Below, piece after piece: positions 3,117 to 44,300 of a stretch of 64,000 bases of DNA. Origin of the DNA: Tubulanus polymorphus (taxonomy: Eukaryota; Nemertea; Palaeonemertea; Tubulaniformes; Tubulanidae); contig NC_134034.1 of the NCBI RefSeq assembly GCF_964204645.1, positions 620,001-684,000 on the forward strand, written 5' to 3'. The position numbers and the translations under genes are program-made. Position 1 is the first letter of the stretch; each line of letters begins with the position of its first letter. A model generated the notes under the pieces. That model worked only from the letters and a program-made list of their open reading frames with translations, did not search any database and was not told the DNA's origin.

Positions 3117-3757
3117 AAGAAACACAAAACACCGGTGGCGGATATCGGAGATTAGAATCTATCCAATAAGAAACACGAAACACCAGTGGCGGATATCGGA
3201 GATTAGAATCTATCCAATAAGAAACACGAAACACCAGTGGCGGATATCGGAGACTAGAATCTATCCAATAAGAAACACGAAACACCAGTGGCGGATATCG
3301 GAGATTAGAATCTATCCAATAAGAAACACGAAACACCAGTGGCGGATATCGGAGATTAGAATCTATCCAATAAGAAACACGAAACACCAGTGGCGGATAT
3401 CGGAGACTAGAATCTATCCAATAAGAAACACGAAACACCAGTGGCGGATATCGGAGATTAGAATCTATCCAATAAGAAACACGAAACACCAGTGGCGGAT
3501 ATCGGAGACTAGAATCTATCCAATAAGAAACACGAAACACCAGTGGCGGATATCGGAGATTAGAATCTATCCAATAAGAAACACGAAACACCAGTGGCGG
3601 ATATCGGAGATTAGAATCTATCCAATAAGAAACACGAAACACCAGTGGCGGATATCGGAGATTAGAATCTATCCAATAAGAAACACGAAACACCAGTGGC
3701 GGATATCGGAGACTAGAATCTATCCAATAAGAAACACGAAACACCAGTGGCGGATAT
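3117..3757. repeat. 51-bp minisatellite, about 12.6 units
   Basis: About 12 complete copies plus a partial one of a 51-bp unit (core ACACCAGTGGCGGATATCGG). Units are nearly identical; most variation is one T/C site (GAGATTAG or GAGACTAG). Because 51 is a multiple of three and the unit lacks stops, long ORFs arise on both strands (3010-3867 plus, 3094-3744 minus). These are treated as repeat artefacts. The left flank at 3022-3070 recurs near 7590-7630. Confidence 0.9.
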
Positions 3758-3867
3758 TGGACATAGTATATTCAATAACTTCTTTATATATAAAAACAAT
3801 ATATCATTCATTTCATTCAGCGATGATAAATATAAGCACTTCATTAAAACATTCTTTCCATATTTAG

Positions 3868-6346: not shown

Positions 6347-9300
6347 CTAAACGATTGTTTGCGGTGGCAACGTTTCAAACGGTTGGACTAGTTTCTGATC
6401 CGTTGTCGGTAAAGGATTCGATCTGTAGTGTTGCACGAGGTCGATGAGTTCATTGAAAGAACATTCGTCATTCTTTAGTCTCCATTTCGACTTGTCTTGT
6501 ACGATTTCGAATGATTTTACTGGTTCCTTCTCGTCCCTGAAAACACAATTCAACAGCAGGAAAACATTTAGATATTTCACCTACGATAAGCTGCTTCTGC
6601 AGCCCCTGGACCACATTCCTTACCCCCCCCCCCCACCGGCTAAATCCAGTTTATCTTTGAGACCAATCAAATTAATGTGGTTTATGAGAATTCCGGAATT
6701 ACACCTTACAAGTTTTCACTTATTTCTAGATGAACTCTAAATGAGAGAGAGAGAGGAGAAAATGAGGGTTTAGTTCAACCCTGCTTCAGCCACGGCTATA
6801 GCCTGGATACAACCCCCCCATCCCCTCTGGTTGTCTGGTATAATACATAGTTATATATTCAACTTACTCATTCGTTTTCACGTATAACTTGTTCATTTCA
6901 TTTTCTTGATGAATAAAGAATGTACCGACTGGAGCCGGAGCTGAAGTATTCGCATCTTTCAAAATATCCAACTTTTGCGTACAGTCCGTTGTGTAATACC
7001 AGTTACGTTGGTTTTCAAACGCGTTTGGAGGAAGTGGTTCGACTCTGGAATAGAGAGAAGCACGATAATACAAAGAGTGGAATCAATTCCACCAGTTCCA
7101 CGGCGGTGCTGTGATACTGATAACTAAAACTTACCCATTTTCCTTGTCGTCCATCATGACTTTTAGTTCCGTAGGGTCTGCATTATCCTTATCCGCTTTA
7201 TCAACTCCTGCAGATATCAATTTGTAAAACATTACATTTTCTAAAAGCGACTTAATTTGTCCGATTTGAAACCAATGTACACAGGCCACAGCTCTAAGTC
7301 GTCTGATAAGTCGTCACATGACTACACGGTATAAAAAGACCATATGGGGGCCCATGATAAGGCTAAAAAAAATTGATACCTTGTTTCTCCGCTCTGCTGA
7401 GCTTAAATGTTGATCCGGCCGGCCGCCTATCTACCCTATACATTACTTTTTTTTAAATCGTGATCAATTTTACCATAATAGACCCGGCCGCTATAGAAAT
7501 AAACTGTTTATAAATTTTTATCATATTTTACAAAAATGACCCGGCCGCTGCGGAGAAACAAGGTATCATTTTTGTTTAGCCTAAATTAAGGATACTGGTT
7601 AAAAATAGATGGGACCTGACGCAAGATCCAGATTTCCAGATATTGACAATAGCTCTAAAATGATAGTAAAATTTCAACAATTTTGCTGATATGCCGCCCT
7701 AAATTAAGAATATATGCCCTTTTTATTGGTCGACATGGTCACAACATGGCCCTGGATCCGCCCCTGCTCTAAGTCATTTGATAAGTCGTCACATGACCAA
7801 AGTCATCTCTATTTTTGAGTCCCAATTTGTCCGAAGTGTAAGTCATCCTTTGGATAAGTCGTCACCTTTTACTGAAACTGTCTGTATTTTTAAGTTCCTA
7901 TTTGTATTTGCAATTGATTTTAATAATTAAGACGAAAATTAGCCGGATCTTTATAAATACAGATAACGATGCTCTGTGTAATTGTTATATTTACCACCAG
8001 CTGGCGCTGCTTCATCAGCAGATGAACCTTTTTTCCAACACGGCCACAAAGCAACAAATCGCGTTCTCCAATTAGCGCCTGTAAGATTATTAGTGAACGT
8101 ATTTAACTGAAGGAAATTATCGCCTCAGTTCATCAAACGATGGTTGAATTAATTCCATTTACCAGTAGAGGGAGCTGTTTTACAACACGACAACCATTTC
8201 CAATCAATAAAGTGTGTCCAGCATGTCCCATCTGTATGTAAACGCAAACAGTGCATAGATATTCATCGAAAATAACAATCATTTCCAGTTCCACAATCTC
8301 TAATTTACAACTGTGGAACTAAATCCTGAGTTCACAGTTAACTCTAACTCAAGAACTGGATCCTGAGTTCACAGTTAACTCTAACTCATAACTGTAGAAC
8401 TGGATCCCGAGTTCACAGTTAACTCTAACTCACAACTGTGGAACTGGATCCTGAATTTAGAGTTAACTCTTACCTCACAATTGTTAAACTGGATCCTGAG
8501 TTCACAGTAAACTCTTACTAACAACTGTGGAACTGGATCCTGAGTTCACAGTTAACTCTAACTCACACCATTGAACTGGATCCAGAGTTCACAGTTAACT
8601 CTAACTCATAACTGTAGAACTGGATCCTGAGTTCCCAGTTAACTCTAACTCACAAATGTGGAACTGGATTCTGAGTTCACAGTTAACTCTAACTCACAAC
8701 TGTGGAACTGGTTACAGATAACTGACACATAACAGTAATCAATTCACGGTCTGCAGATACTCACAAGTTGGTTTAGAGTTAGCTGGTGGACAAATACCAT
8801 TGTTACCATGCGCATGATATCCATCCACCAGTAATAACAATGATCAACTTTCTAGAGACCGCGGACCCTGTATATAAATACTGATTTAGTACTCACCTTC
8901 TTGCGATCTGTGATATGTTAGAAATCTATAAACGAGGAATGCTAACACGATTATCAATATCACTAAGAAGAGTATACCTATCACTAGACCAGCAGACAAC
9001 CCAGCTAAAAATACAAATACAACCTACAGTATCACACCTGAGTCTAACTGAGTTTCAGAGAAAACAACAGACAAGAGTTTGAATCATATTTACCTGTGCT
9101 CGGGGATGGAATCACATCACCTAAAATGGAAAAATACATTCAAATTTATTGTCAGAAAATTAAATCTGCACAACTGTTACTGGATCCAGTGTGGAACTGT
9201 GGATCATAACTGTGGAACTGGATTCAGAGTCAAATTATACCCGCACAACCGTGGAACTGGGTCCAGAGTCGAATTAAACCCACACAACTGTGGAACTGAA

Positions 9301-11978
9301 TCCAGAGTCGAATAAAACCCACACAACTGTGGAACTGGATCTAAAGACAAATCAAACCCACACAACTGTGAAACTGGACTTGAAGTCAAATTGAACCCAC
9401 ACAACTGTGGAACTGAATCCAGAGTAAAATTGAACCCACACAACTGTGGAACTGGATTCAGGGTCAAATTGAACCCACACAACTGTGGAACTGGATTCAG
9501 GGTCAAATTAAACCCACACAACTGTGGAACTGGGTCCAGAGTCGAATTGAACCCACACAACTGTGGAACTGGGTCCAGAGTCGAATTGAACCCACACAAG
9601 CGCGGAACTGGATCCAGTGTAGAACTGTGGATCACGACTTACCAGAACCGAAGAATTGAAATGTTATCTGTTTGGAACGTTGAGTAGATATGAATGATTT
9701 TCCGATGTTTGCTCCAGTTTCACATTTCACTGGAATCTCTCCGTTAAAATCTGAACCGTTCAAATACACGGTGCTGGAAGTTTTATATCTGGGGAAACCG
9801 TTTACATCCGGTGAACAAGATGAGCTCAAGGCAGACGCATCAGTGTATTCTACATGCTGTGAAAATCAATAGATATTTTTTTCATACATTTACAGGTGGT
9901 ATGTGGTAGGCACTAAAGTAGTTGCTTGTACATGTAGTGGTTTTTAATAAATTCGTCGGTTCAGGTGCCAACTATCGTCCAGCTTGTGGCGCCATCTCTG
10001 CGAGTAGCCAATTATGAGTTTGACAGCTGTGATTTAGATCAGTGTCATTCTCTAGTTTTTCATCGGCCTAATCGGACGATGATCTGCTGAATAAACTATA
10101 TATTTATCAACTAAATATATTTTCTCTTTATTTATCGCAGTCGGTGAGTGACCGCATCGTCAGTCGTTGTATCAAGACAGAACCAAATGACTGACACAGT
10201 TTAAAGAGGAGTCAGCTATCACAGGAATCCTTCCACCAATTTTCCATCGCGGTGGAACGACCTTTTAAAGTATTTTCCATTTAGAAGCAGTTTTGAAGAA
10301 ATCAATTAATCGTAGGGAATCTGAACGTATAAACTATAAATAACTCCACTGACCTTGACGAACCATCTGATATACGGTTGTGTATTCGAGCAGACGGTGT
10401 CGCACGTTACTTCAACTGTTCCATTCTCGTAAACCATCGCTCCGTTCTTCATCGACGCGTCCATCGTTACCGACGCGACCGGATCAACAATCGTAACCGC
10501 GACGACGATACTGTCCGCGTTGACGTTCATATGAAAATGAGGCCGTCCGTCGTTGAACCACGTGTCGGTTTTCAGAGTAAGATTCATCCAACCGCGACGT
10601 CTTCCGGCCGCCCACGCCGACTCCGAGCGTAGAGACCGCGAACACGACACTCCGAACACTCTCGTGTCCATTTTGAATTTATCGAATGCGTACGCGGGAA
10701 ACGCTTCGCATTCGTTATTAAAACGCAGAGTGTCCGGCGATGAGTCCGGCCGACGTTTATAGTCAACCACCTGCCACATGAATGTCCTCGGGAATTCTTT
10801 GACTCCGGGTAGAGCTTCGATCAGTCCCGACAGAGTGAACGTTTCATTGCGTATAACCGTTCGATTGTCGCTAGGATACGCCTTCAGTTTGAACTCTTTC
10901 GGTTCCAAGGCTTAAAAACGAACAAACGCACGAAAATAACAAACGCACGAAAATAACATCGAGGCTCATCATGGAATCCTAGTGAATCAACCTAAACTTT
11001 ACCCTATCCTTAGCTCTAAAACAGACCCTAAACCTAACTCTCTGGTCCCGGTTCCACAGTTCTGAGTTAGAGTTAAATCTGAGTTAAAGTTAGTTCATTT
11101 TCAATTAGTTAACTCAGAGTTAAATCTCAACTCAGAACTGTGGAACTGGACCCTGGTCCTTAAAGGCTACCTAGACCCTAACTCCACCGAAACCCTTACC
11201 CTATAGGCCACAGGGGCTCAACACCGTTTTTAAAGGTGGTACCAAGGATACTGGGTCAAATCTTTGATTTTGGACCCCCGGCTATAGTGACGAGCCCCTG
11301 TGTGTAGGCCTACTATGGAATGAAATAGTTTCTTTTTATATTTTATAAGTATGTAAGCAAATAGCATTTACTGAAATAATGGGGCATCGCAAAATATCAA
11401 CTTTCTTTTTTAAACTTAAAAATATCGCAGTGGATATTATACGGCTGAGTGTTTATATCCGCTATTTTACTCAACATCGCCGCTGATTGGCTGATTTACG
11501 CCGCGCATGCGCACACAGAGGTGCGCGACTTAGAAAATTCAAGGAAACTGTGGAGAACAGAGTTAGAGAAAATAGAGCGGATCGAGCGAGACTCAAACCC
11601 GGGCCAGTAAGTTACTAGCGCAGCATCATACCACTAGACCACCGAGCTCGCTGAAAACCAACCGAATGTTTTTAACTACATATAGCCTCACCTAACCCTT
11701 ATCCTTGAAACGGAACCCTCTGGACCCTCTTCTCACCCTTTCGACACTAAACCCTATCGAAACCCTAAAACCCAATATAATGATTTCATTGTTACTTATA
11801 TGGTAAAATAGCGGAAGTAAATACTTTGCCTATAGGTTAAATATCACCTTCGTAAAAATATTGACAATGACATTTATTAGATTGGATTTGATCATGTTGT
11901 TTGTCACTTACGAGTCACTCGCACAAACAATGACAACAACACCACAATACTGCTGCTGAAATACTTCTTGATAAACAT
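6347..11978 (-). CDS. Ig-like single-pass membrane protein with C-terminal SH2-like domain
   Basis: Ten exons on the minus strand: 11978-11912, 10910-10354, 9856-9643, 9120-9094, 9004-8897, 8231-8163, 8078-7995, 7207-7135, 7044-6868, 6536-6347. They total 1,566 nt, or 521 residues plus stop, and all phases agree. Exon 1 encodes a signal peptide (MFIKKYFSSSIVVLLSLFVR). Exons 2-3 give the ectodomain with N-glycosylation sequons and an Ig-like Cys-Trp-Cys pattern (VEVTCDTVC, IRWFVK, IPVKCETG). Exon 5 encodes the membrane span (AGLSAGLVIGILFLVILIIV). The cytoplasmic part ends in an SH2-like fold: WYYTT, GTFFIHQ, KLYVKTNE, KSFEIVQ, FNELIDLVQHYRSNPLP. The usual FLVR arginine is His here (FFIH) and the usual His before the betaD strand is Ser, so phosphotyrosine binding may be lost or altered. 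No kinase domain is seen. Established knowledge: animal SH2 proteins are typically cytosolic. The SH2 assignment rests on motif pattern only; an adaptor-like receptor role is inference. Confidence 0.8.
7361..7581. mobile_element. 221-bp MITE with GGCTAAA terminal inverted repeats
   Basis: Terminal inverted repeats of about 31 bp (GGCTAAAAAAAATTGATACC at the left, reverse complement at the right) are flanked by TAA on both sides (7358-7360, 7582-7584). A 3-bp TWA duplication is typical of PIF/Harbinger-related MITEs, so that affiliation is a reasonable inference. It sits in intron 7 of the Ig/SH2 gene. Confidence 0.7.
8282..8712. repeat. About 44-bp minisatellite in the Ig/SH2 gene
   Basis: About nine to ten imperfect units of GTGGAACTGGATCCTGAGTT followed by CACAGTTAACTCTAACT lie in the intron between the membrane exon and the next exon. 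The same vocabulary recurs at 9166-9630, 11046-11150, 13549-13862, 32502-32700 and 52961-53015. Confidence 0.8.
9166..9630. repeat. 39-bp minisatellite
   Basis: Roughly eleven units of a 39-bp repeat built on ACAACTGTGGAACTGGATCC lie in the intron between exons 3 and 4 of the Ig/SH2 gene. As 39 is divisible by three, both strands show repetitive ORFs (9204-9635 minus, 9391-9687 plus); these are artefacts. Confidence 0.85.
10911..11911. other. Intron 1 of the Ig/SH2 gene
   Basis: The roughly 1-kb intron between the signal-peptide exon and the first Ig exon. It holds a short stretch of the GTTCCACAGTT-type repeat (11046-11150) and a tRNA-derived SINE at 11582-11650. No additional exon is apparent. 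Confidence 0.6.
11582..11650 (-). mobile_element. tRNA-derived SINE head
   Basis: On the minus strand an A-box-like GGTCTAGTGGTATGATG is followed by a B-box-like GGGTTTGAGTC at tRNA-like distance. The acceptor arms do not pair, so a functional tRNA is unlikely. Confidence 0.5.
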
Positions 11979-13548
11979 CTGAAAAAACGAAAACGGGCCT
12001 TTTAGAAACGACTCAAAATGTGGCAAAATGACAAGGCAATCGGTGACATTGTCAATTCAATTTCAATTCAATACATAGGCTAGCCTACATAAACGTCAAA
12101 GACGCTTTTTGACGTCATCGATACCAGTATTCAGACACGTAATTACCTTCATTCGATAAATATCCTACTAAATACAATATTCGGGCGTAAAATCATATGT
12201 TTAAAAGCCCCGAAATGGAGCGAACACCCGTTGAACCGGCGAGCCCGTATCAACCCAGTAGTGTTCAGCGGAAGCTTAATAGAACTGGGTGGGGAAATGG
12301 GGAAAACCCGTAAATCCCCACCAATCAAACGCCGACTCAATCATAGACTGGTTACCGGTTTCTATCTTCAACCATATTGAATGGGACAGGCAACCAGTCT
12401 AAATACGAATGCAGGTGGCGCAAAATACGACAGGCAACCAGTCTACAACTATTTTCAATTTATTTGTTTTTCTGATTTACTATTATTATTAGGCTAGGCA
12501 TATATTTCAATACAATTCGAAATTTAATCAAAATTTCGATTTTAATTTCTCATAGACATGACGAGTCTTCGATCCCAACCTAGACATCTTCTTGAGTAGG
12601 TGAGGTATCACAGCTACTCAAAACGGTTAACGTGGGATTCGAACCGCATTATGAACCCAACCAAGCCTCGGCACTCAGTACTACTATATGATATAGAGCG
12701 TTCCCATGGTTAATATTTGATATCGAATTAGCTTTAGAGCGTTTGATCTTCACTTCACTGTTGCCCACACTGTAATTACGATTTATGAATTTAATCAGCC
12801 GACGAATGCGCCATCTTCAGGATAGCGTACGCAACAGTTTATCGACGCGGCTATTATTGATTTCTTGCGCGGGAACTCGCACAGCGGACACACATCAGCA
12901 ACACACACACACACTGCACAAACCACGCATAATAAATTCATCTAATGTGATACATCATTATTTAGCCGCCATCTTGTTTTCTGGTTGTCTTGTAGAACAT
13001 TCCTGACTGGAGACTCGAGCTTTTTCAGCGAGAATCCTTCAATTCGCGTTCGGAAAATAGGATCTGAGTTCGTGCATGGATGTCGAGCAGATAAAACGTG
13101 AGTAATAATGGAACTGGTAATTGTGATTTGTCTGCAGTATCGTTCCTCACACTGAGCGATCTCTGCAGTCTTTATACTGTCTCAGTAAAAACGGAATCGA
13201 TATTGTCAAACAGTTCAGTGAAATGCAACCCGATTTTTAGACCCCTTCCGAAAATACAATGCAACATCCAGCAATGTTTGAATTTATATAAAAATCGAGT
13301 GATATGTGGTCGTGTTTTAAATCGTCTCCTGTTTTGTTTTTCGATAAATTCTTCTCTGTGATCGATAGGAGAGATAGCAGCAGGTGCGTGTAGACTAGAC
13401 AGCTCAGCAGCAGGTCGAACTATAATGGCCGCTGACGACATCGCACTCGCTACTTCTTCATCCAATTGAGAAATTCAGGGAATTGTAAAAATATCAAATC
13501 ATGAATTCTTGATGCAATTTGATTTGATTCTGGATCTAATGTTCCGCG
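11979..13548. other. Intergenic region between two divergent genes
   Basis: It lies between the 5' end of the Ig/SH2 gene (minus) and the ankyrin/SOCS gene (plus), so both promoters and noncoding leader exons are expected here. The AG directly before the Ig/SH2 ATG (11979-11981, after a T-run) suggests an upstream noncoding exon. No TATA box or convincing coding exon was identified. Confidence 0.45.
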
Positions 13549-13862
13549 TTGTGGGTCGGTTCTAACAGGGTTTATTTGTCTCTGAACCCAGTTCCACAGT
13601 TATGTGGATTAAATTAGACTCTTGATCCTATACGGATCCAATTCCACAATTGTGTTGGTTTAATTTGACTCTAGATCCAGTTCCACACTTGTGTGGGTTT
13701 AATTTGACTCTGAATCCAGTTAGACACTTGTGTGGATTTAATCTGACTCTGAATCCAGTCCCACCCATGTGTGGGTATAATATATATAACTCTGGATCCA
13801 GTTCCACAGTTGTGCGGATTTCATTTCACTGTGGTGGATCCAATAATTCCACACAGTTGTGA
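13549..13862. repeat. Minisatellite of the GGATCC/CCACA family
   Basis: Five to six imperfect units of about 40-45 bp with the words GATCCAGTTCCACA and TGTGTGGGTTTAATTTGAC. It is the reverse orientation of the array at 9166-9630 and lies just upstream of the ankyrin/SOCS coding exon. Confidence 0.8.
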
Positions 13863-13951
13863 TACCCGGTGCTAAATTAGATAATATCGATTTCTCTTTC
13901 TAGTCGTACTAACAGTAAGTGGACAGGTGTACATTGAGCCATCGCTGTACA

Positions 13952-15289
13952 ATGATGAATAATCTACCAGACTGCCGCATGTTGGCCTCGAGCCTTCATC
14001 ACAACAATAACAATCACCTGTTAATGGGAAACGGAAGTGCCAGCTCGGTTGCCTTGGTATTCTACGACGCTATTATCAACAATGAACTGGACACGTTACG
14101 TAAAGTGGTCGAGATTTACAAAATCGACGTAAACGCTAGATTTACGGAGGTCCGTAAACCGAATCACGTCGATCTATGCCCGGTTCACCTGGTCGCCTAT
14201 AAAGGCTACGGGTCTATGTTGCAGTACTTAATCGATTATAAATGTGACGTCACGACAACGACACAAAATTTGAAACGTCAGGCGATCCACTACGCGGCCA
14301 TGGGGCACCAGATGGGCTGTTTGAGGAAACTGCTAAAAGCCCACGCCCAAATGAACTCGAAAGATACGTTTGGTAATTCGCCGTGTCATTACGCGGCCGA
14401 GGACGGGAACTGCGATATCATACGCGAATTACTGGCGCAAGGAGCAGAAGTCGACTCGCAGGACATCACCTGGAAAACACCTCTGATGAAAGCGACGCGG
14501 AACGGTAAAGCGCGCGTGTCTGAGCTGTTACTGAAAGCCGGATGTGACGTCAACATCCGCGACGAATACCTGAACACGGCGCTGCATTTCGCGGCGCGCT
14601 GCGGATCGCTCGAAATCCTCAACAAACTTCTGAAAGCGGGCGCTAAAATCAACGTGCAAAATCACTGGGGTTTGACCCCGTTGATGGAGGCCGTCTGCTA
14701 CAACCAGAAAGCCGTCGTCGGTAAACTGATCGACGAAAAATGCGACCTCTATCGGCGCGAAACGAAAACGGGTGATACGGCTTTGCATATCGCAGTGAAG
14801 AAGAACTATTGCGTAATTTCGGATATGTTGCTAAAAGCCGGTGAGTGGATTCCGTACGTCTATAACTACAACCGTGAATCTCTGCTTCACGACGCCGTCA
14901 TCTACAATCGCCTGGACATTATTCGACTTTTCGTCTATCGGAATTTCGACATCGAAATACCGTGTAAGATCTACCCGGACGGTCGTCGCAAGCATATTGT
15001 ACAGCTGTCGCTGGAGAAGGGTAACATCGAAATATGCAAAATCATCTCTGACGTCACGTGTAGTTCGTGCACGTCGCACGATGACGTCACGCAAGGTCGC
15101 GTACTCGGTAGCCAATCGTCGATGTCGGATTTGACGACGGTGAAGTCGTTGCGTAAGTGGAGCCGTCGAGCGATTCGGCGCTCGCTCGGTTTCGATATCG
15201 AGGATAAGATTAACAATCTACCGGTTCCGCAGGCGATGAAGGATTATATCACATGTCGCGATCTGAACGTTCATCACTGTCTACTGTAA
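13952..15289 (+). CDS. Ankyrin repeat and SOCS box protein (ASB-like)
   Basis: A single uninterrupted coding exon of 445 residues. ASB proteins are substrate receptors of Cullin-5/Elongin-BC ubiquitin ligases: ankyrin repeats bind the target and the SOCS box binds Elongin BC. Eight to nine ankyrin repeats span roughly residues 30-375 (for example GNSPCHYAAEDGNCDIIREL, NTALHFAARCGSLEILNKLL, GDTALHIAVKKNYCVISDML). A SOCS-box-like segment lies near the C terminus (SLRKWSRRAIRRSLG, then INNLPVPQAMKDYI). The first in-frame ATG is used; the frame upstream is closed by TAA within the same exon. A polypyrimidine tract and AG at about 13890-13903 indicate a 5'-UTR intron. The particular vertebrate ASB orthologue and the substrate cannot be named. 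Base composition is visibly more GC-rich than the flanks, as expected for coding sequence. Confidence 0.9.
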   Translation: MMNNLPDCRMLASSLHHNNNNHLLMGNGSASSVALVFYDAIINNELDTLRKVVEIYKIDVNARFTEVRKPNHVDLCPVHLVAYKGYGSMLQYLIDYKCDVTTTTQNLKRQAIHYAAMGHQMGCLRKLLKAHAQMNSKDTFGNSPCHYAAEDGNCDIIRELLAQGAEVDSQDITWKTPLMKATRNGKARVSELLLKAGCDVNIRDEYLNTALHFAARCGSLEILNKLLKAGAKINVQNHWGLTPLMEAVCYNQKAVVGKLIDEKCDLYRRETKTGDTALHIAVKKNYCVISDMLLKAGEWIPYVYNYNRESLLHDAVIYNRLDIIRLFVYRNFDIEIPCKIYPDGRRKHIVQLSLEKGNIEICKIISDVTCSSCTSHDDVTQGRVLGSQSSMSDLTTVKSLRKWSRRAIRRSLGFDIEDKINNLPVPQAMKDYITCRDLNVHHCLL

Positions 15290-21399: not shown

Positions 21400-24300
21400 C
21401 TATCGACGACGTTTGTATTTTGCTTGAATGGATTTCAAATCGATCGTCAGTATAGTGTAGAGAATAGGATTGAGGGACGAGTTGATCGGCAAGAAAAGAA
21501 CCGCCAGCCAAGCCGCCACCTGATTCGGTATTTCTACCCGAAATACCGCGCAAAACTGAACAGTGATTATCGGTAGCCAACAAAATAAATTTGAAAGATT
21601 TATCACCAAACTCCTGCGTGCCAAAATCAGTTCAGTAGGATCAATTCTACCCGAGCCGGACCTGCTTCCAGATACGTATCTGTACATCTGCGCATAAGTC
21701 ACCATTATCGTAACAAGTATTGCCGAGTTGGACACGGCAAAAATAGCCAGAGAATATTGCCAGGCGTCGACATCATTGGTCAGTAAATTCATCGGTAAAC
21801 AAACTCCGGTTGTGCCATAGAAATTCGGACCGAAGTACGGCAATTGTGAAAGTGGTAACAGAGAAATCGTACCCAAAATGAGCCAGCAAATACAGCAAAT
21901 ACTGGTGATGAGTCTAGGGGATACAAAAAAACTGTCAGAAAATAGATCGATGATGTTCGAGTATCGATGACGTGTTAGAATAAGCAAGAATGTTAACGAG
22001 CCTTCACAGGAAATGGTTACTAAAATCCCGGCAACGCGACACAATGAACTGCTCGTCCACATTTCAGAATTTAAGAAATAAATGCCTTTGTAAACGTAAT
22101 CAGCTCCTGCTATAAAGAATAGATAAATCGACATCAGGAAATCACAAGCAGCGAGATTCATGATGAGGATATCAGAAGATCTGTTGCGCGTTTCGGATGA
22201 TGGTAGTTGAATGCGCAGTAAAATTACAACGCTGTTGGCGAAGAAACTGAACGCAGCGATGACCCAGATTATAGCTCTGAGGACCGAGTTACCCATCAGG
22301 TCAGAACAGGAGGAAAATTGATCAGCTTCAGGAAGGCAGTTATCAACATTTGGAGCCATGCAGCAAAATTTGTAAGCATCAGACCTTAGGGTCTCTAACG
22401 ATGTCAGGTTGTTGAAAGCGCTTGCTTCTGTAGAAATGAACTTTGAATTATTAGCCAAATCGAGATGTAACAGTTGGCCTAAACTGGAGAAAGCATATTT
22501 TGATATACGGTTGATTCTATTGCTGCTGATATTCAATGAAGTCATTGAGGAAAGACCTTCGAATATATTTGCACCAAGTTCCGAAATGTGCATTCCATGA
22601 AGATCAAACAGTGGAAGTGAATCTAAACCACGAAAGCATCCTTCCTCCATATAGCGAATTGGATTTCCGGTCATGAATAGTTTCTTTAAAGCGCCCAAGC
22701 CATAAAATATATCCGCAGATAAGGATGTTATGTTATTATATGTAAGGTCTAAGGTGTGAAGGTTATGCAGGTGTGAGAACGAATTGGGTACAACGTGCGA
22801 TATTCCATTGGAGGAGATGTTGAGAATACGAAGGTAAACGAATGAAGAAAACGTCGACACATTGAAAATAATTCTGTTATTCGACAACATTAGAATTCGA
22901 CTTGATATCGTGAAGAGGCCACTTATACCGGTGAGACCAACATTTCTACAGTAAACAGAATGACCTTGACACTCACAACGGCTAGGACACGTGACGTTAC
23001 AGAAAGCCTCGTCGTCAGTGGTACTTTTACAATTTACAACACCGTCACAAACTTCAGATTGTGGAATACATCGATTTTCATGGCCACATTTAAACATCCC
23101 CGGACATGAAAATGACTCGCAATTTTGCTCATCTTCTGAATTGGGACAATCTGATTGACCATCGCACACCTGTCTGATCGGTATACAGTACGATGCTGGA
23201 CATTTTACAGTACCAGCTGGACATTCAAATTCTTCACATTTTGATAAGTGCTCGAGATTTCTACAAACGAAGTAACCATTTGTTATCCTTTCAAGAATAC
23301 ATCTGTGACGTCTTGAATAACAATGGGGAGAATCAAAAGAACATCTTTGTTCAACGGATTCTCTGCACAGATTAGTGAAGTTAGTCGTACAGTGGTTCTC
23401 ATTATTGCACTGAATCGTAGGATCCACTGTAACATCAGTATTGTCTACTAATTCGTCTTCTTCAAGGCTCCCTTTGCAATCCACGACACCATCCTGATAC
23501 AACTGAGAACTGATACAGTCTCCATTGTTACACAGAAACCCCTGACACAGTTGAGAGGTGCATCCCATTTCATCGGAGCCATCAATACAACCAGTGACTC
23601 CGTCACATCTTTTAGACCTACCCACACATTGACCATTCTCACAACGAAATTGGTCGGAAAAACATGGGAGATGAAAACACGAGTTCTCATCAGAACCGTC
23701 CAGACAATCTTGAACGAAATCACAGAAACCACTGATTGATATAATCTGACCATCAGAGCAGTGAAACCTGCTGTATAAATTCATATCCGTACAATTGAGT
23801 TCATCTTCACCATGTTGACAGTCGTTTCTGGTATCACATACGCGATGGTTGCTGATACATCTTTGATCGTTACATTCAAACTGCCACGATTTACAACCGC
23901 TTATAGAAGCCAACTCTTCACCAGTGTAGGAACACAATACAGAATGCAGAATTACGTCTTCAGCGGTGACGTCGCTCGTATTAGAAGACCAAACCAGTGA
24001 ATGAATATACGTGATTTCATCCCTGGTTAGTGTTGGCCGTATTGCTCTAAATCTGGTCATTCCATCAATTACTAACACGGCGCCATATTGGTGCTGATAG
24101 TTAAACGTAGTGATTAAGTTACTAACTACTGTGTCCGTCAAAGAAGTAATCGTGCCTATTTCGCAACGGATGTCACGGCACATCTCGGTCGCTGTTTTTA
24201 TATCTAAACCTCGATGGTTGTTCCAGTCTGTCAGTATTTGATAACATCGCCCGGCTACACCTATCCAACCTCGAGTACAGGTTGAGTTGACAGCAAGTAC

Positions 24301-27300
24301 GTCTAGCATTGTATTTATTTTTGTTTCATTTGCAATCGTAGTAGGGCTATTTTCCTGCTTATTATATCGATCCGATTCGCAAACAAAGGTCGTATGGACC
24401 TCTTCGATTAAACACGGGAATCGAACCCAGTTCGCCGATCCTCGTGGATTATTCAGTATCATCGCCGTACACGGCATATTGGCGTCATTTATTGGTTGCG
24501 TTCTAAGAGGAGATATCAATCCTTGAATAACTTCCGGTATAGTTTCGTTACTCGTCGGTTTATACCACTCTGTGTAGCTCAATGGTTTACCGTCACTCCA
24601 CGCATAGTCACCAGTAGTATTCGCCTGTAAAAAACGAACTAAAGCATAGAGGTCAATCAGTATATACGTCTCCACAAGGAGGGGGTAAAATGCATACCAG
24701 TCTTGGCCTCCATCGATTGGAAAAACACTTCGAAAATTTGATTTACCTTCAGTTTTAATCCAATCATCATTATGAGCACTTTTTGTGAATACCCCTCTTG
24801 CAGAAGTTTCGTAGCGAATAATCTTTTAATGGAAATCATTTCTTGTTCTGAGTTGATACTGAGCAGGTGTCCTGTGTACTTCTGTTTACAGTACAATTCA
24901 GCGTTCTCCCAATTCAGACGTTCGTGTTTGATATATTTGACACAAGAAAAGTAACCAGAATCATAGAACCCCGGTTTACATTGAGTATCTTTGGTCGTCG
25001 ATGCTTTTTCTAAAGTATATTGTATTTGGAATTTAGGGACTCGTTGTTTTAACACGAATGAGATGTATTTATCCGTAAGACTGTGGAATACGCTACCGAT
25101 TAATTGATGGTTCGTTGTGCAGATCATCAGATCGGGTTGTTGAAAATTACCAATTGCTTGAATGAAAATGACCGGATCTTTTTCCAATAGAGATGTTTTT
25201 AAGCACGGCGTGTTTTCCATGTATTTTATCACGAATCTGTAATATTTGTGGTCCTCGACACGAGACCCAATCCCTATCGTCAGGGCCTCAAAACTATAGG
25301 TTTGTGGCCGCATCAACATGTCTGTGACTCCCGGATAGTTCGGCGACTGCACTAAGCCACATTCATCTTTTTCCTTGAACATAATTCCGATATGAAATGC
25401 CGAAGGCTTTTTCAAACGTTGACATTTACGACGTAGTTCAACTATAAGTGGATGTTGCCAGAAACCGTGGTCTCTTTTTAAAGTCACGGTGTTTAATACG
25501 AAACCGTTATTGGTGAACTGACTCTTTAAACCCAGGTACCTGCTGCACAGCGTCGTCGGTTGTCGATCGCAACGACCAACTTGATATTCGTGTTTTGACA
25601 ATATTTTAAAGTTCTCGAAGGTCAAGCGTCGGTTCTTAGGTGTAATGACGACACAGTTTGACGTCATATTAATCAGACGTTCTCCCTCTTGCAGTATGTA
25701 CCCCGTACAGTCCGTCAGTTGAAATCGCAGTTCAGTGTTACTTCCCAGTAGTCCGTCCCATTTGTAAGCGTACGCTACTATTGTAACCGCACCACCTGCT
25801 GAAATCAGACTGACGACGTTACGGTCGTATCTATTGGAACTAGGACAATACGGTCCGTAGCGTGTAGCCACCGTCAAATTACCCCCATCGTAGATGTAAA
25901 ATCCGGCTCGCTCGCAGTTCTCCGATAGAATCAACATTCTCATTCCATTATCGTGAATATCGACTTTCGATGTGAATTCTATTTTAAACACTTGGTACTC
26001 AATCGTCGGTTTGTTTCTCGTTGGGAAATATTGGAAAGGTGAGAAACCTGTCGTAAACTGCAGAGAAAAACGATAAAACTCGTGAGATACTCGTATAATC
26101 ATGTTCGATGATAATATTTCTAAAATCGTATTAGTTTACTTACTTGCCACGTTGTCAATTGAACATCTGCCGTCGAAAGCGATTTTATCTTAAAGTATAT
26201 TTTCATTTGAGACTTGGTCAATAGTTCGTCTTTTAATAAAACGCAAATAATGACAAGAAAGCCCTCTGATTCTACGCTAAGCGATTCCAGGTAGTTGTTA
26301 CCGAGTAAAATATCAATTCCTACAATACGTAACCCTTCCATCTTAAAGACACCGATGACATTTTTCGAAGTGACGAGATCTCCAGTCCAGTTGAAGACGA
26401 CGTACTGTAACACCTGCACGGTGATGGACCAGCAGTGTAAGCGTTTTGTTCCTGTTATTACGTGTAAACTGTTGTCGTCTTCGGAAATAAGCACTCCCGA
26501 TTCGTTATTAGAAATCTGAATCAACGGATTAGTCACGTTCCAATCTGATATTTTGTAAATTTGCACTAGTAATTGCGCATGAAATTGGAAATTTTCGTAC
26601 AACAAACCTGCGATTGCGGCCTTGTTGGTTTTTGAATAAAATGTCACCGATGGTAGTCCAGTTTGTGCAGGTATATTGCCAATAGGTGCGCTGCTGGTGT
26701 TCCAACCGTCATATACTCTAACTGAAGCCGTCTCAAAAATGCGGAAAATCTTGAAGCTAACAGCTATAAATGTCAGATTCAGAGCGAAATAATCCGTAAG
26801 TCCAACCCACTCTAAATAGAGATAACACTGTAAATTGCTAATAGCAAATTTGTACCCAATCGATGTTTGTAACTTGCCTAATCTAAGATGATGTCTCCTT
26901 CTACAATTGTTACTTAGATTCAAATGACTTCGTTCATAACGATACGTGATATAAACTCGACTACCCCGCGCACTATCGACGTTACTCCTAAACATCATCG
27001 AGATCGAATCGTTACGGCGGATTTCTCGTCCTCCGTAACCGCAGAGTCTACTATCGGACTCGCCGACGAGAAGGTAGTTATCGCTACAGAATATTGACGG
27101 CTCGATTTCGTAGTATAATTCGACGTTAAAAGTTCCCCCGGGTGAAGAACCGTTGACGAACCAACGACATTCAACACCACGCGTTAACGACGGATAATTC
27201 GGTGAAACGATGTAACCGGACGTAGAATCGACTGGGTACCAAGTGTTGTTACAAGACGAACTGGCCGTCACGGAATCGGACCGATCAGCGTGAACCATCT

Positions 27301-27370
27301 GAACTCGCCAGACGATCAGCGACGCTGTGAACAGCGCACATAAATAATCCATACCGAACAACATATACAC
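21400..27370 (-). CDS. GRL101-like receptor: CUB, C-type lectin, LDLa, LRR, rhodopsin-like 7TM
   Basis: Three exons: 27370-26144, 26057-24747, 24624-21400. All introns are phase 0 and the product is 1,920 residues. A signal peptide follows Met1 or Met7 (27352; MDYLCALFTASLIVW). Exon 1 has a CUB domain (YIVSPNYPSLTRGVECRWFV). Exon 2 contains further CUB-like sequence (CGLVQSPNYPGV) and the first half of a C-type lectin domain, which the second intron splits (IGLKLK / ANTTGDYAWSDGKPL). Exon 3 carries a second lectin-like domain (CTRGWIGVAGRCYQI), about six LDLa modules (for example CDGVTGCIDGSDEMGC) at roughly residues 1095-1400, about seven LRRs, and seven membrane helices from about 1625. The DRY position reads TRHRY and helix 7 has NSSLNPILYT. 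The architecture resembles Lymnaea GRL101 and the relaxin-receptor family, with extra lectin/CUB modules. Ligand unknown. Confidence 0.9.
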
Positions 27371-28792
27371 GACCGAATGAACTCACATCATTAAAATTTT
27401 AGATCGGATTACTTTTCGTCAGTCGTAGCTTCACACTTATCACAGTTCATCCAATTAGGGAAATTTTCATGAAATGGATATTTTTCTTCGCTGCTGTAAT
27501 TATTTCTGAAATAGGACATGTATAAACATATATTTCAGAACTTATTTTATATATACCTTTGAAAATATATGAACACGTTGAATCCATAACCGTAATATTA
27601 TGAAAACTAATAATTGCACTACAGAATGGTTGGGATTTGAGTTTGTGGCATTAAAGCCATGTTGGAAATACGCTGACTTATCTACAGTCGAACCTCGTTG
27701 ATTCAATTACGTTAAAGACGAAACCTGTTTATATCGATGATTTTCCGTATGTCCCAATCAAGATATCTATATCAATCATGCAAGGTTTGGATAATACGAA
27801 ACGTGTTTAATAAGATATTTTCTCCTTAGCCCACAAGATCCATCGGAACGAGGTTCCGCTGTATCATTCTAGGACGCTCTCATTATGTTCAGAACGGATT
27901 TAGCGTTCCCAATCGCAAAACGTCCGTTCTAATTAGGGTCCGTTCCATCTAAGAACACGATGGAAATTTAATGACGATATCAAGAGAACTCGAATCCAAT
28001 TGAATCGAAGTCAAACATCTTTTTTTTAAATGTCCCTTTTACAAACCCGATACACCTGCCGAAAACGAAACCGGGAATTCGATGTTGAAATCGGAAATCG
28101 AAGTACAGGAGATATAGTTGTGTGGGATCGGCGGTCCAATTTACGGAAGTAGACAATTGGATATCATTCTGTTAAGAAACCTTCGTTCTTTAGTGGGATA
28201 TCGACAGTGCATCTGGCCATTATTTATTGATGATAAAATACTGAAGTCTTTTGTCTCCAAATTGAAGAAAATATCGTGAATGTAGATTCTTTCAACTGCT
28301 CAACGTCTGGTAAGTACACTACACGATGGACATATATTTTTAAGTATGACGATTGTAGGATGGGCAGGTTTGGACCACAAGGTGGCAATTTCGTGGTGCT
28401 ACATTCGCGCTTAGACTGGCCCTAAGTTGTGGGATTGGTTACTGATACAAAGTGAGCTTAAACTGGTCATAAGTTGTTAGATCGTCTGTAGAACCAGGAT
28501 GAGCTGAGACTGGCCTTGAGTTGTAAGATTGGTTATAGAACCCAAATGAGCTTAGACTGGTCATGAAGTTGTCAGATTGGTTATAGAACCAGAATGAGCT
28601 TAGACTGATCTTAAGTTGTACGATTGGTTATAGAACCAAATCTAAACCTTTAGAATGACGGAACTCACAACTGGGTTAAGCGTCACAAAACATGTGGTTT
28701 TGTAAAATCGATTATTTCGCTGTTATTGGATTATCTTTCCCATGTTTTTTTTTCTAGTAATCAAAAGGTTCAATTCGAAGTGACCAACTACA
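27371..28792. other. Divergent intergenic region, GRL101-like / astacin A
   Basis: It holds the promoters of two divergently transcribed genes. A tandem array of the 47-bp AGACTGG family lies at 28415-28640. A possible noncoding leader exon for astacin A ends at a GTAAGT donor near 28311. The coding exon is preceded by a T-rich acceptor ending at 28756. No protein-coding sequence is seen. Confidence 0.5.
28415..28640. repeat. AGACTGG 47-bp tandem array
   Basis: Four to five units (TTAGACTGGTCATAAGTTG and GATTGGTTATAGAACC variants) just upstream of astacin A. A related array lies at the equivalent position upstream of copy B (49128-49320). Confidence 0.75.
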
Positions 28793-32395: not shown

Positions 32396-35300
32396 GTAGG
32401 TCTCAACCTAAACCAAACATGATCGTTGAATGTACGGCATTCGATCATTTCTTAAACTAAGAATGATGCAAGAACTTCCGACTTCTACATATTTCTTTCA
32501 TCTGACTGTGGATCAAATTCCACAATTGGGTATAGTTATTCTGTGGATCCAATTCCACAATTGGGTATAGTTATTCTGTGGATCCAATTCCACAATTGGG
32601 TATAGTTTTTCTGTGGATCCAATTGCACAATTATGAATTATGTGGGTCTAATTTGATTCTGAATCCAGTTCCAGAGTTGTGTGGGTTTTATTTGACTATG
32701 AACCCATTTATACTTGAATAACGGTTGCACTGCAGAACAGTCTGTTATTACCTGGGTGAATAGATTATATGGAATCATAATAATTTGCCATTCTTTTTAC
32801 AGACAAGAATGATACAATTTCGACGTGGTCAGTTTGGTCATCACCGTGTACTTCACAATGTAAAAAAACACGTCAACGTTTTTGTTTCACTGGCAACTGC
32901 CCAAATACGAACAAATACGACGTCGAATCGGAAACAGTTGCCTGCACACAGGCCGAATGTAACGGTAAATAAAAACACGTTCATCATGGCTCACAACTCG
33001 GGGTCCAGAGTTTGTGCAATCATGGCCTAGATTTAAGACCATTCGTAGCTCATTTCGGGTATAAGCCAATCTAACAACTAAAGATTAATACTTTTGCACT
33101 AGATATCCGTCTAAGATCTTCTACGTGTATTGCGGAATATTGGTATCACAGATTGCTTGATAAGAACCCTTGTTTTGCATATTGGCATGAATTATGAGCG
33201 CTTATTGGCATAATCAATCTTAATTCTAACGAGCTATCTTCGAAATGTTAATTCATGTTAATGCATTTCCTACTTATGAATTAGTTTGTGATCGCGGTAT
33301 CTTTTCACGCAGCGCCAATCGATGGTCATTGGTCAAGGTGGACCACGTGGCCTAAATGCTCTGGCAAGTGCGGCGCATCGGGAACTAGAACACGAACTCG
33401 CAAGTGCAACGAACCGACACCGAAAAATGGTGGCGCTGACTGCAGCGGGGACAAAATACAAACAGTTAACTGTAAATTAGGGAGATGTGAAGTCGGTAAA
33501 TATCCGTATCATAGTCAGGAAATCTGCATCCCGTCAGAGTCAGGAAATCTGCATCCCGTCAGAGTCAGGAATTCTGCATCCCGTCAGAGCCTGAAACTCT
33601 GCATCAGAGTTCTCAATCCATGTTTCATAACAGAGATTCCCTTCGTTTTTGTATTCAGGAATCGGTTCGGAGTTTGAACATGGTAATTATAACTTGTGGT
33701 CAGACGTGGGGACGACGGCTAAATGGATCCTCAAAGACAAAGGAACGCCATCTACTGGCACCGGTGCTAAGGACGACCATACACTTCAGGACAACACGGG
33801 TAAAGTTGCGAATGAAAAATATGCCTGTCTTTATATCAATCACAGGTGGATTCTATTGAAAGAAAGTTTAGACGAAGAACTGATTCAAAGTTAGTAGCCT
33901 ATTGCTCTTATACTGATGAATAGTGAATTCGGATTTATTTCATTCAGGACATTTCATCTACATCGAAGCATCAGATTTGAAGAGAAACGACAGGGCTATT
34001 CTTGAATTGAAGAAAGTGACGTCAAGTGCTACTTGTAAAATGCATCTTTGGTATAACATGCGAGGCGAGACGATCAATACACTGAGCGTAACGGCAAATG
34101 GCAACACTATCTTCACTAAATCCGGCAACCAAGGTGAAGGTTGGAAAGAGGCCATCATGACGGTTCCAGATGGAGAGGATATTACAGTAAGATATGTATT
34201 CATAGCAGGACAAGGAAGAATTAGACCTTGGTTTAACAGTAGTTCTACTGGGTGTTGCTTTCTTCAGATATTCTGATCTTTTTATTCACTTTCAAAAACT
34301 GATCGTCCACACTTTCACTTTGAGACAACTTTGACTAAAAATGAACTGCAAACACCAGACAATAGACATTGAACACGTTCCCAAATGTTTTGATACTTTC
34401 TCAGTTTGTATCAAAAATATTGCCAATTTCTGGTCATTGAGTCCTGAAAAATGATAAATTTACAGCGCAAAATCGTACAAACGTGTCAATTATACTTCTA
34501 AACACTTTATTTGCGGACCAGTTTATGAATTGAGCGTGGGCCATAGAGCGCTATATCCGCCTGTGATCTCGACTTTCAATTTATTACGTAAGCTATTCGT
34601 GAACAAAATGCGGCCGGCGCACAATAGAAACTTCGCTCTATGTATTCTTTCATTACCGCCGACAAAGAGGACCGATATTTCGCAAATTGGATTCGGGAGG
34701 TTTAAACCTCCCAAGGTCAAATCACTAAAATTGTGACCTTCGTGGAGATTATCTAAAAAGCCGATGGTAATCAAATTTAGCAGAACTTTTTACCCAAACG
34801 TTTAATGGTTTGAAAATCTTTCAATGGCATTCCTAAGTATTTGATGAAAGTTGAGAAATCATAAGATATTCATATAACCATGGACTCTAAAACCTAAATC
34901 GTTTAAGAGTCCCTGGTATAAAAAAAAAACTTTGCATAACGAAGAAGCAAAAATTCGAATCTGATTCATCTGTTTGGAATTGATTCTCATGAAATGGAAA
35001 CAAATGCGTGAGCACTACTCATTGATTCGTTCATTATTGTACAATATGTTTCATTTGTTGACCGTAAGACGTTGACATTATGTCAATTTCATTCAATTTA
35101 CTTTGCGGCTTTACAACGGCTATTTCACTGGTTCTGCGTGATGAGATAATTCTGATTAAAGTTATTGTATTAATTTCTATATGTATATACGTAATGATAC
35201 TCTTTCTGAATAAAGGATGCACGTTATTCGAATCCCCACCATTGTTCTCTACAATGTACGTTAATCAAACTCACGATAAAACCAGAGCCAAAACCATGGA

Positions 35301-41300: not shown

Positions 41301-44300
41301 CACATGCGTCCTGCCTGATTGCGGTAAACCCCCTACCCGCTTACGAATGAACTGCCCAGATATAATGGCCGCCTCCATTAATTCCTCCTATGACGTCAGT
41401 AACTCACTCATAGACATCTTCGCTCTACTTGGTCTTTGAAATCGCTGTTTTTTCACTCTTTTACCGTGCATTTCTGCGCGAGAAATATCGTCGTCGCTTC
41501 ACTTTACATTCTACGTTGCGGCGTTATTCATTTTCCTGGTGGGTTCGAATCCTGAAAACGGTAAATATATTTTTTTATAATGTTATTTGAATGACCGTTT
41601 ATCTTTAAATGTGAACTAAACGGAAATAAAAACGGTTGAGCAGTGATGGCCAGTTACGTACGTTCTTGAGTTCTTGATTTCGACCACTTGTTACAACTCG
41701 GGCGCTATCGAGCTGAGTCTTTCTTAACCGCTTTTCATATTCCATAGTTTTTACTCGGCTTCTTATCACAATATTTAAATCATTGTAGTTGACGGTATCT
41801 GGAGTGACTGGGGTAATTACGGAAGTTGTAGTGTCACGTGTGGCAATGGCACTAAAACACGGACGAGGACTTGTACAAACCCGGCTCCGTTGAATGGTGG
41901 AGCTGATTGTGCCGGTAGTGCCAGTCAATCTACAAGTTGTAATGACGGCGCCTGCCCAGGTGATAGGTTTATTTCATTTTATCTCAAGAGGAGATATTTG
42001 CATATATTATGCAAATTATCCATCTATGTTTGTGTAAATGGGCTGTAAGAGTTACGGGTAATTGAGCAAATTCGGAATATCTACATCGTATCAATAAGTT
42101 TATCGATTCATCGTTGCATTCGGAACCCCCCCCCCCCACCTTTCAGGTACAGCCCCGAGGGGTTTGGGTTGTTTTCTTATTTATGTACCTATTTTTTCAT
42201 TTATATCTCAAAAATTATGTTAATAATGTCGTACATACTATAAGTAATCAATTTGTAGTTGTAACCGCTTTTCATATTCCATAGTTTTTACTCGGCTTCT
42301 TATCACAATATTTAAATCATTGTAGTTGACGGTAACTGGAGTGACTGGGGTAATTACGGAAGTTGTAGTATCACGTGTGGAAACGGCACTAAAACACGGA
42401 CGAGGACTTGTACTAACCCGGCCCCGTCGAATGGTGGTGCTAAATGTGTTGGTAAAGCCAATGAGTCTACAAGTTGTAATCATGGCCCTTGTCCAGGTAA
42501 ATAAGTGAATTCAGATTTGAACCATTGCATGAATTATGCAGATGTATATTTGATTCCGATAAGATATCATAAATGATTATCAAACTATTTTGAAAAATCA
42601 TTGAACGGTTTCAGGCGATGGTAACTGGAGCGACTGGGGTAATTACGGAAGTTGTAGTGTCACCTGTGGGGATGGTACTAAAACACGGACGAGGACTTGT
42701 ACAAACCCTGTACCGTCGAATGGCGGAGCGGACTGTGTGGGTAAAGCCAGTGAGTCTGCAAGTTGTAACGACGGCCCTTGTCCAGGTAAGTTATAGATAA
42801 ATCTTCTAGGCGAATTAAGATATTTACATAAATTTTGCAAATCAGCTATTGATAACACATAATCAATTTGTAGTTGATGGTAACTGGAGCGACTGGGGTA
42901 ATTACGGAAGTTGTAGTGTCACGTGCGGAGAAGGCACTAAAACACGGACGAGGACTTGTACAAACCCGGCCCCGTCGAATGGCGGAGCTGACTGTGTTGG
43001 TAAAGCCAGTGAGACTACAAGTTGTAACGATGGCGCTTGTCCAGGTAAGTCTGATTTCAATTCAACCTTGTAAATTTGCATATTTGTATAAACGTTGCTA
43101 ATTATGTAGATTTGGTACACGGCAAAGCAAGCGAATTTCAGATACTTTTATTAATTAAGCAAATAAGATATAAAGGACAGCTTCAATTTGTAGTTGACGG
43201 TAACTGGAGCGACTGGGTTAATTACGGAAGTTGTAGCGTCACATGTGGAGATGGTACTAAAACACGGACGAGGACTTGTACAAACCCTGTACCGTCGAAT
43301 GGTGGCGCTGACTGTGTTGGTAAAGCCAGCCAGTCTATCAGCTGTAATGACGGCGCCTGTCCAGGTATTTATTTCACTGGATAAACGTGAATCTTCTTAA
43401 AGTGACTCGTGAGCAAAACAATTCTACACTTGAATATCACGCCAAACTCGGGGTATGTTTGTTTACAGCCGCTCAGTTGAGTACAGATTTTGAGAATGGC
43501 TTCGATCAATGGGACACTGTGGGTCGCCCTACCTGGAATATCGGGCAAGGTAAAACTCCGTCTTACAGGACTGGTCCCACGTTTGATCACACTCTCAGGT
43601 CATCAGCTGGTAAGTTGTTTCTTATTTGCCATGCTTAAACTAAACGTATTTTAGATATCAATTTTGAGTCTCATCTTTCGAACATCACAATATGTGATGT
43701 TGGTGATGTCCTGAACACACGTGAAGTGTGGACGGTCAGATCTTTTTAAGCGTGCCGATAAAATGTCTAATGCCAATTGTTTGTAGTTCAGACTCTAATG
43801 AAAATGTCTTCAAGTGAAATTGTGGACACGTGTGAAGCGTGTGTGGACGATCAGCTTTTGAAAGTTTGCTAATGAAATGTCTAATGTCTGGTGTTTGAAG
43901 TTCATTTGCAAATAGGAATATCTCAGATGAAGAACTGAACACATGTTAAGTGTTAAAATTTGAAACAAATTGGAAGAATGTATCAATGTCGAATGACTGA
44001 AGAGGATCATCTCTCCTTCAAAGCGATCATCATATTTCTTGTACGCGTAGTTGAATTATGTGTGTCTATATTTCAAGGTCATTACGCGTTTATGGAAGCC
44101 TCACCGTTGCGCCAAAATCAGAAAATCGTTATGGAAACGACAGAATTTACGAGCAACAACGACCAGTGCCTGAACTTCTACTACCATATGTACGGTACAT
44201 CAATGGGTGAACTATCCGTGTTAGTCGACGGGGAAGAGACATTCGTCAGTCGAGGCAACCTTGGAAATCATTGGGTCGAAGGATCCGCCCCTGTGCCCAG

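Follow-up and report, generated by a model that had tools for sequence, protein, structure and literature searches.

In animals, SH2 modules are normally found in proteins distinct from the receptors to which they are recruited, and they are regarded as mobile readers that travel to those receptors. Can a receptor carry an SH2 domain of its own, and what would such a domain bind? The question is raised by a gene in a 64,000-nucleotide stretch of DNA from the nemertean Tubulanus polymorphus (the window), which lies on contig C10 of a 268-Mb genome; our searches of the species' own genome covered that assembly. The gene appears, from its sequence, to encode a cell-surface Ig receptor with an intracellular SH2-type module that has lost the residues gripping phosphotyrosine.

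Gene structure and predicted topology

The open frame consists of ten exons on the minus strand (11978-6347; Table 1), which give a 1566-nt coding sequence for 521 residues with a sole stop at its end. All nine introns have GT...AG splice signals, and phases are consistent across every junction. The ten-exon frame from signal peptide to stop, which had been claimed in a preliminary description of the locus, is therefore borne out. The order of domains is a signal peptide, two Ig-like domains, one strong membrane helix, a Tyr-free linker and a C-terminal SH2 domain; the predicted protein has five N-glycosylation sequons and six ectodomain cysteines. Exons 4-7 are all symmetric, so that any of them could be skipped and leave the frame unchanged. 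An acceptor-like tttttcag lies directly 5' of the exon 1 ATG (11979-11990, minus strand). Since it abuts the start codon, there may be a 5' UTR exon and an intron upstream, or the transcript may undergo leader trans-splicing.

Table 1. Exons of the receptor gene (positions within the window)
Exon	Position	Strand	Encoded feature	Phase and coding evidence
1	11912..11978	-	start Met and signal peptide (MFIKKYFSSSIVVLLSLFVRVT)	no codon-usage support
2	10354..10910	-	Ig-like domain 1 and first half of Ig-like domain 2	codon signal 66.7 bits/185 codons
3	9643..9856	-	Ig-like domain 2, second half	no codon-usage support
4	9094..9120	-	stalk GDVIPSPST (27 nt)	phase 1-1; no codon-usage support; weakest exon
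5	8897..9004	-	single transmembrane helix and stop-transfer residues	phase 1-1; hydropathy 3.64; no codon-usage support
6	8163..8231	-	juxtamembrane Trp/Cys-rich segment (CWTHFIDWKWLSCCK)	no codon-usage support
7	7995..8078	-	probable tandem duplicate of exon 6 (NWRTRFVALWPCWKK)	
8	7135..7207	-	acidic linker (VDKADKDNADPTELKVMMDDKENG)	codon signal 12.7 bits/23 codons
9	6868..7044	-	first SH2 half (W415, GTFFIHQ, His at bB5)	ends at SH2 intron, phase 2; codon signal 16.2 bits/58 codons
10	6347..6536	-	second SH2 half (VKSFEI, FNELIDLVQHYRSNPLP), tail, stop	codon signal 10.8 bits/63 codons

A single membrane helix had likewise been described, and hydropathy analysis agrees. The best Kyte-Doolittle mean, 3.64, falls at residues 295-313; the best values elsewhere are 1.63 in the signal peptide, 1.57 for segments starting at residues 16-269 and 0.43 for those starting after residue 320. 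The cytoplasmic part comprises about 100 residues followed by the SH2-like domain, which starts at Trp415. No tyrosine occurs in the 94 residues between the juxtamembrane Tyr and the SH2 domain, so there is no ITAM there, and a scan of the cytoplasmic part for the ITIM pattern [ILVS]xYxx[ILV] gave no match. With no docking tyrosine in this linker and no ITIM in the cytoplasmic part, two elements would, by exclusion, have to carry any output: the SH2-like domain and the juxtamembrane segment rich in Trp and Cys, the cysteines of which could be acylated.

Genomic neighborhood

The divergent neighbor of the receptor gene (13919-15289, plus strand) is an ORF in one exon that encodes ankyrin repeats and, at its C-terminus, a SOCS box (ASB type). 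Farther along, on the minus strand, an ORF of 1141 residues (21400-27382) combines four LDL-receptor A repeats, leucine-rich repeats and a rhodopsin-type 7TM domain; we take it to be GRL101/RXFP-like. Two ORFs upstream of it resemble, by eye, C-type lectin and CUB parts, neither with a Pfam match. Between 33 and 62 kb the plus strand carries a number of exons of the thrombospondin-1, MAM and astacin types (a single exon of each type tested). By eye, this region seems to include a duplicated block, with pairs for example at 33920-34276 and 55072-55494, 43957-44334 and 58751-59095, 45176-45538 and 59655-59960, and 46695-47138 and 61163-61474.

Repeats occur both within the gene and around it. 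Related 39- and 44-bp minisatellites are found in intron 5 (8353-8711), in intron 3 (9208-9617) and beyond the gene (13634-13834). In intron 1, at about 11580-11640 (minus strand), what looks by eye like a tRNA-derived SINE head can be seen (GGTCTAGTGGTATGATGCTGCGC ... GGGTTTGAGTCTC); ARAGORN found no tRNA gene in the window. A 51-bp tandem repeat at 3117-3761 (12.6 copies, 98% matches) is open on both strands, for 297 and 225 residues, and is likely a satellite, not a gene.

The ectodomain and its paralogue

An exon-by-exon search of the genome with the full protein returned, beyond the gene itself, an ectodomain relative on contig C6 (E 2.2e-5) and a weak match on contig C3 (E 0.56). In the C6 paralogue (L001, C6:2238638) domain 1 is 31% identical to that of the window gene and domain 2 is 34% identical over 97 residues. 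By eye, the two genes share intron phases at the start of domain 1 (phase 1), in the middle of domain 2 (phase 0) and at the end of domain 2 (phase 1); the paralogue has an exon with the same boundaries as exon 3, and one extra intron between its two domains. We followed the paralogue for about 15 kb downstream and found no convincing membrane helix or SH2 domain, so the fusion of receptor and SH2 is known from one gene only. As for the weak C3 match (L002, G000:C3:22903501-22913500, minus strand), by eye it resembles a large adhesion-type receptor of the Ig/FN3 kind that has a membrane helix; its tail-like ORFs contain three YAxV motifs, also by eye, a conventional arrangement unlike that of the window gene.

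The Ig-like cysteines originally attributed to the ectodomain are present in part. A second cysteine pair is retained in domain 1 of both the window gene and the paralogue, but window domain 1 lacks the pair that the paralogue keeps (VSC ... FYC). Both sides of this pair have been lost together, replaced by G and M, and such coordinated loss is the pattern expected of an Ig-type sandwich.

Other tests of the ectodomain gave mixed signals. The AF2 model of exon 2 is of low confidence (pLDDT 53.9); for the paralogue domain the pLDDT was 51.5. Searched with Foldseek, the exon 2 model matched nothing at E 0.001, and the rows listed were unrelated folds. In a second structure comparison, in which Z below 8 may reflect merely a common arrangement, the top three places among the matches listed went to seipin and two Clostridium Csp proteins (Z 6.3-6.5), with V-type Ig domains making up the majority of the remaining rows listed (Z 5.0-6.2). 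Pfam gave no Ig family match on the ectodomain at E <=10. Against a profile of Ig repeats from the same genome, window domain 2 scored 13.6 bits, a value equalled by 1 of 20,000 shuffles; domain 2 of the paralogue alone was not recognized as Ig, 2402 of 20,000 shuffles being as good. We provisionally read the ectodomain as a divergent Ig-type structure.

One gene or two

Does a single transcript join the membrane exons to the SH2 exons? The codon-usage test gives no support to exons 1, 3, 4, 5 and 6; backing for exon 3 comes instead from the paralogue, and for exon 5 from its helix. For exon 7 the outcome depended on the training set: the second gave 4.1 bits over 27 codons and the first -2.0, with another frame scoring higher. 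In a decoy test with the first set, exon 6 was matched by five of five decoys and exon 7 by two of five.

Exons 6 and 7 are related at the level of DNA. With the following intron included, their similarity score of 38 was reached by none of 3000 random window segments (those near exon 7 were skipped) and by none of 3000 dinucleotide shuffles; for the exons alone, 2 of 5000 comparisons were as good. The amino-acid similarity is not significant (821 of 5000 shuffles as good). Exon 7 is thus probably a tandem duplicate of exon 6, visible in the DNA only. As a DNA query, the two exons found only themselves in an exon-by-exon search of the genome.

In exon 8, the 16 codons before the first ATG score 8.26 bits, a value reached by none of 1135 overlapping open intronic windows, although the contrast is helped by the use of these very introns to train the background. 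Upstream of the acceptor, the same frame scores 1.04 bits over 34 codons and is not coding-like. Since the coding signal begins near the acceptor, ahead of the ATG, translation would seem to enter from an upstream exon. Exon 8 requires a preceding exon that ends in phase 1, and exons 4, 5, 6 and 7 all do.

These observations bear on the alternative that the frame merges two genes: an Ig receptor that stops after exon 5 with a short tail, and a separate SH2 adaptor of about 130 residues that starts at the ATGATG of exon 8 and resembles SAP/SH2D1A in size. In its favor are the in-frame ATG pair itself, the AATAAA and ATTAAA motifs of intron 7, the lack of codon support for exons 4 to 6 and the paralogue, in which no SH2 was seen within about 15 kb downstream. 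Yet such motifs occur in introns 1, 2 and 3 too, the codons ahead of the ATG pair look coding while those upstream of the acceptor do not, and the phase-1 exon that exon 8 needs is supplied by any of exons 4-7. Counting against a single gene, neither AATAAA nor ATTAAA occurs over the 1.3 kb that follow the stop codon (6346-5001). We consider two separate genes unlikely. The phase fit of exons 4-7, the coding signal before the exon 8 ATG and the exon 6/7 duplication together favor one gene, and we infer a single transcript joining the membrane and SH2 exons.

The C-terminal domain is of SH2 descent

The motifs by which the domain had first been recognized (WYYTT, GTFFIHQ and FNELIDLVQHY) are all present. 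A HMMER comparison with PF00017, suggested at the same time, had a divided outcome: the domain alone matched two Pfam families, both of them SH2, but both matches fell short of the cut-off (PF21990, E 0.0041; PF00017, E 0.12). Genome-wide, PF00017 matched 66 places at E <=10, a search that can miss exon-split matches, and the window locus was absent from them; PF21990 gave one weak place only (E 0.07). Similar receptors may therefore escape routine annotation. With the SH2 domain alone as query, the exon-by-exon genome search found only the domain itself at E <=10.

Comparison with the sequences of solved structures (E <=10) gave, among the matches listed, 30 SH2 proteins and four L,D-transpeptidases out of 34. 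The best, PLC-gamma 1 (E 3.6e-4), is the sum of two weak stretches, each with E above 0.2 alone. We also constructed a profile of 14 SH2 domains from this genome, with the window sequence left out. Against it the window domain scored 24.6 bits, whereas none of 20,000 shuffles reached this score and the best of them had 9.4. The match spans the bB row to the end of the domain; the alpha-A part has diverged too far to be aligned. By hhalign the domain reached 88.6% against SH2 (P 2.6e-6), compared with 6.4% for the best of 200 shuffles and 0.1% against an Ig profile.

Gene structure provides a further line of evidence, one that does not depend on sequence similarity. Counted from the beginning of the G-x-F-L-V-R codon row, the intron that splits the domain falls at nt 59; it is in phase 2 and marks where strand bC ends. 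A donor-like site at the identical nucleotide and phase is present in 8 of the 23 own-genome SH2 loci examined and absent in 14; in the ninth positive locus (L021) the donor is equivalent after one missing residue. For seven of these nine loci, a second-half SH2 exon was located downstream. It is unlikely that both position and phase were copied by chance or convergence. Taken together, the profile score and the shared intron make the assignment secure at the sequence level: the domain is an SH2 descendant despite its sub-threshold Pfam scores.

Changes in the phosphotyrosine pocket

We next asked whether this domain could bind phosphotyrosine as SH2 domains usually do. Pocket positions (bB5, bB7, bD4, bD6, aA2) are named as in the SH2 field. 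The bB row of the window domain reads G-T-F-F-I-H-Q-E against the canonical G-x-F-L-V-R-x-S, so that Arg bB5 has become His and Ser bB7 has become Glu. Strand D reads V-K-S-F-E-I against the usual V-K-H-F-K-I type, with Ser for His at bD4 and Glu at bD6. Arg aA2 is replaced by Thr, a less certain assignment that rests on an ungapped count from the Trp. In the 14 aligned own-genome domains, Arg bB5 and Ser bB7 are each found in all 14, His bD4 in 13 and Lys or Arg bD6 in nine. The claim that the FLVR Arg is His is thus confirmed. The site expected to hold phosphate is thus left without its basic residues, and two acidic ones have appeared there. With five pocket positions changed, Arg bB5 to His among them, ordinary phosphotyrosine binding by this domain appears unlikely. 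That four positions beyond the FLVR Arg have changed as well favors the earlier suggestion of non-canonical or constitutive docking.

No other Arg-less SH2 domain emerged from a survey of 31 loci (L004-L034), namely 30 out of 46 matches that PF00017 gave at E 0.001 and the one PF21990 match: the FLVR exon was visible in 30 of the 31, with Arg in all 30, in a search that favours canonical domains. The remaining locus (L028) is the second half of the L030 gene. Under the same bias toward canonical domains, seven weak SH2 matches showed the FLVR exon in six cases and Arg in all six.

Could the domain still read phosphotyrosine through other residues, so that phosphorylated partners, in cis or in trans, are brought to the receptor or bring it to themselves? 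FLVR-independent binding does exist: the C-terminal SH2 domain of p120RasGAP is reported to bind phosphotyrosine without using its FLVR Arg, by means of Arg bD4 and Lys bD6 (PMC7530234). In the window domain, however, these two positions are Ser and Glu, bB7 is Glu and the pocket is now acidic, which makes such residual binding decidedly unlikely. About equally improbable is that a decayed SH2 domain has been kept as a folded spacer, or as a dominant-negative or decoy tail with no ligand in its groove. The changes at all five pocket positions, the divergence of the domain and the failure to find another copy in the genome would fit decay. On the other hand, exons 8 to 10 have retained their reading frame, their splice sites and a coding-like codon usage, and the alpha-B/BG region (FNELIDLVQHYRSNPLP) can still be aligned with SH2 domains, which is what maintenance of the fold for binding would predict. 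That the tail is no SH2 domain, and resembles one by chance, we regard as highly improbable: the sub-threshold Pfam scores and the four unrelated enzymes among the 34 weak PDB matches listed are outweighed by the profile test (0 of 20,000 shuffles), by hhalign and, above all, by the shared intron position and phase.

Proposed mode of action

The reading that we prefer, with a probability of roughly 0.55, is that the product of the gene is a single type I membrane protein, whose SH2 domain docks a partner independently of phosphotyrosine, as in JAKs. In this model, two Ig-like domains would face outward; inside would follow the Trp/Cys-rich juxtamembrane segment, the acidic Tyr-free linker and the SH2 domain devoid of its phosphate pocket. 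The receptor would signal without being phosphorylated. Its SH2 groove would constitutively hold a cytosolic or membrane partner by an unphosphorylated, perhaps basic, motif, comparable to the way in which JAK-family SH2 domains hold receptor tails. Ligand binding or clustering through the Ig-like domains might then bring the SH2-held partners together, or exclude them. Both the surface location of the receptor and the loss of phosphotyrosine binding are what we infer from the predicted protein; the identity of the partner and the nature of the signal are conjecture.

More tentatively, and with somewhat less than even confidence, we propose that the only recognizable intracellular signaling domain of this receptor is its own phosphotyrosine-blind SH2. 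The usual wiring, with the tyrosine on the receptor and the SH2 domain on the adaptor, would then be reversed and freed from phosphorylation. If this is true, a surface receptor can employ the SH2 fold anew, as a fixed socket that works independently of phosphorylation, and the gene offers a natural test of what an SH2 domain does without the FLVR Arg.

Comparison with known systems

The nearest comparison within the genome is with its canonical SH2 genes, which we take to be of the Grb2, p85, PLC-gamma, Crk and Shb-like types. They share with the window gene the SH2 core and the phase-2 intron at the end of strand bC, but keep Arg bB5. Canonical domains of the Grb2, p85, PLC-gamma, Crk and Shb types sit in cytosolic proteins. 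SAP/SH2D1A is a small single-SH2 adaptor, and the window SH2 unit would be of its size were the exon 8 ATG a start; the difference is that the coding signal extends upstream of that ATG.

On the receptor side, Ig-superfamily receptors with tyrosine motifs offer these tyrosines to the SH2 domains of other proteins. The predicted window protein would resemble them in its signal peptide, its putative Ig-like ectodomain, its one helix and its type I topology. In contrast, the linker of the window protein is free of Tyr and the SH2 domain is carried by the receptor itself. The architecture had been called non-standard at the outset and, in line with this, we found no description of an animal transmembrane receptor with its own SH2 domain in the accessible text of the open-licence literature.

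For the pocket, the closest parallels are TYK2 and RIN2, together with the other JAK FERM-SH2 units. RIN2 and TYK2 are reported to have His at the FLVR Arg position (bB5), and the SH2 domains of JAKs to bind receptor tails independently of phosphotyrosine, where Glu often stands instead (PMC7530234, PMC9783222). The likeness thus lies in the bB5 His and in phosphotyrosine-independent contact with receptors, and carries no claim of specific kinship: TYK2 and RIN2 are cytosolic multidomain proteins, whereas the window SH2 domain is a membrane receptor's own tail, and its bB7, bD4 and bD6 positions have changed as well. Tyrosine kinases in unusual domain combinations are reported for a choanoflagellate (PMC3082566), so a transmembrane SH2 protein in protists would be possible. 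Set against all of these systems, the window gene would represent known parts in an unusual arrangement, in which the defining binding chemistry of one part has probably been lost.
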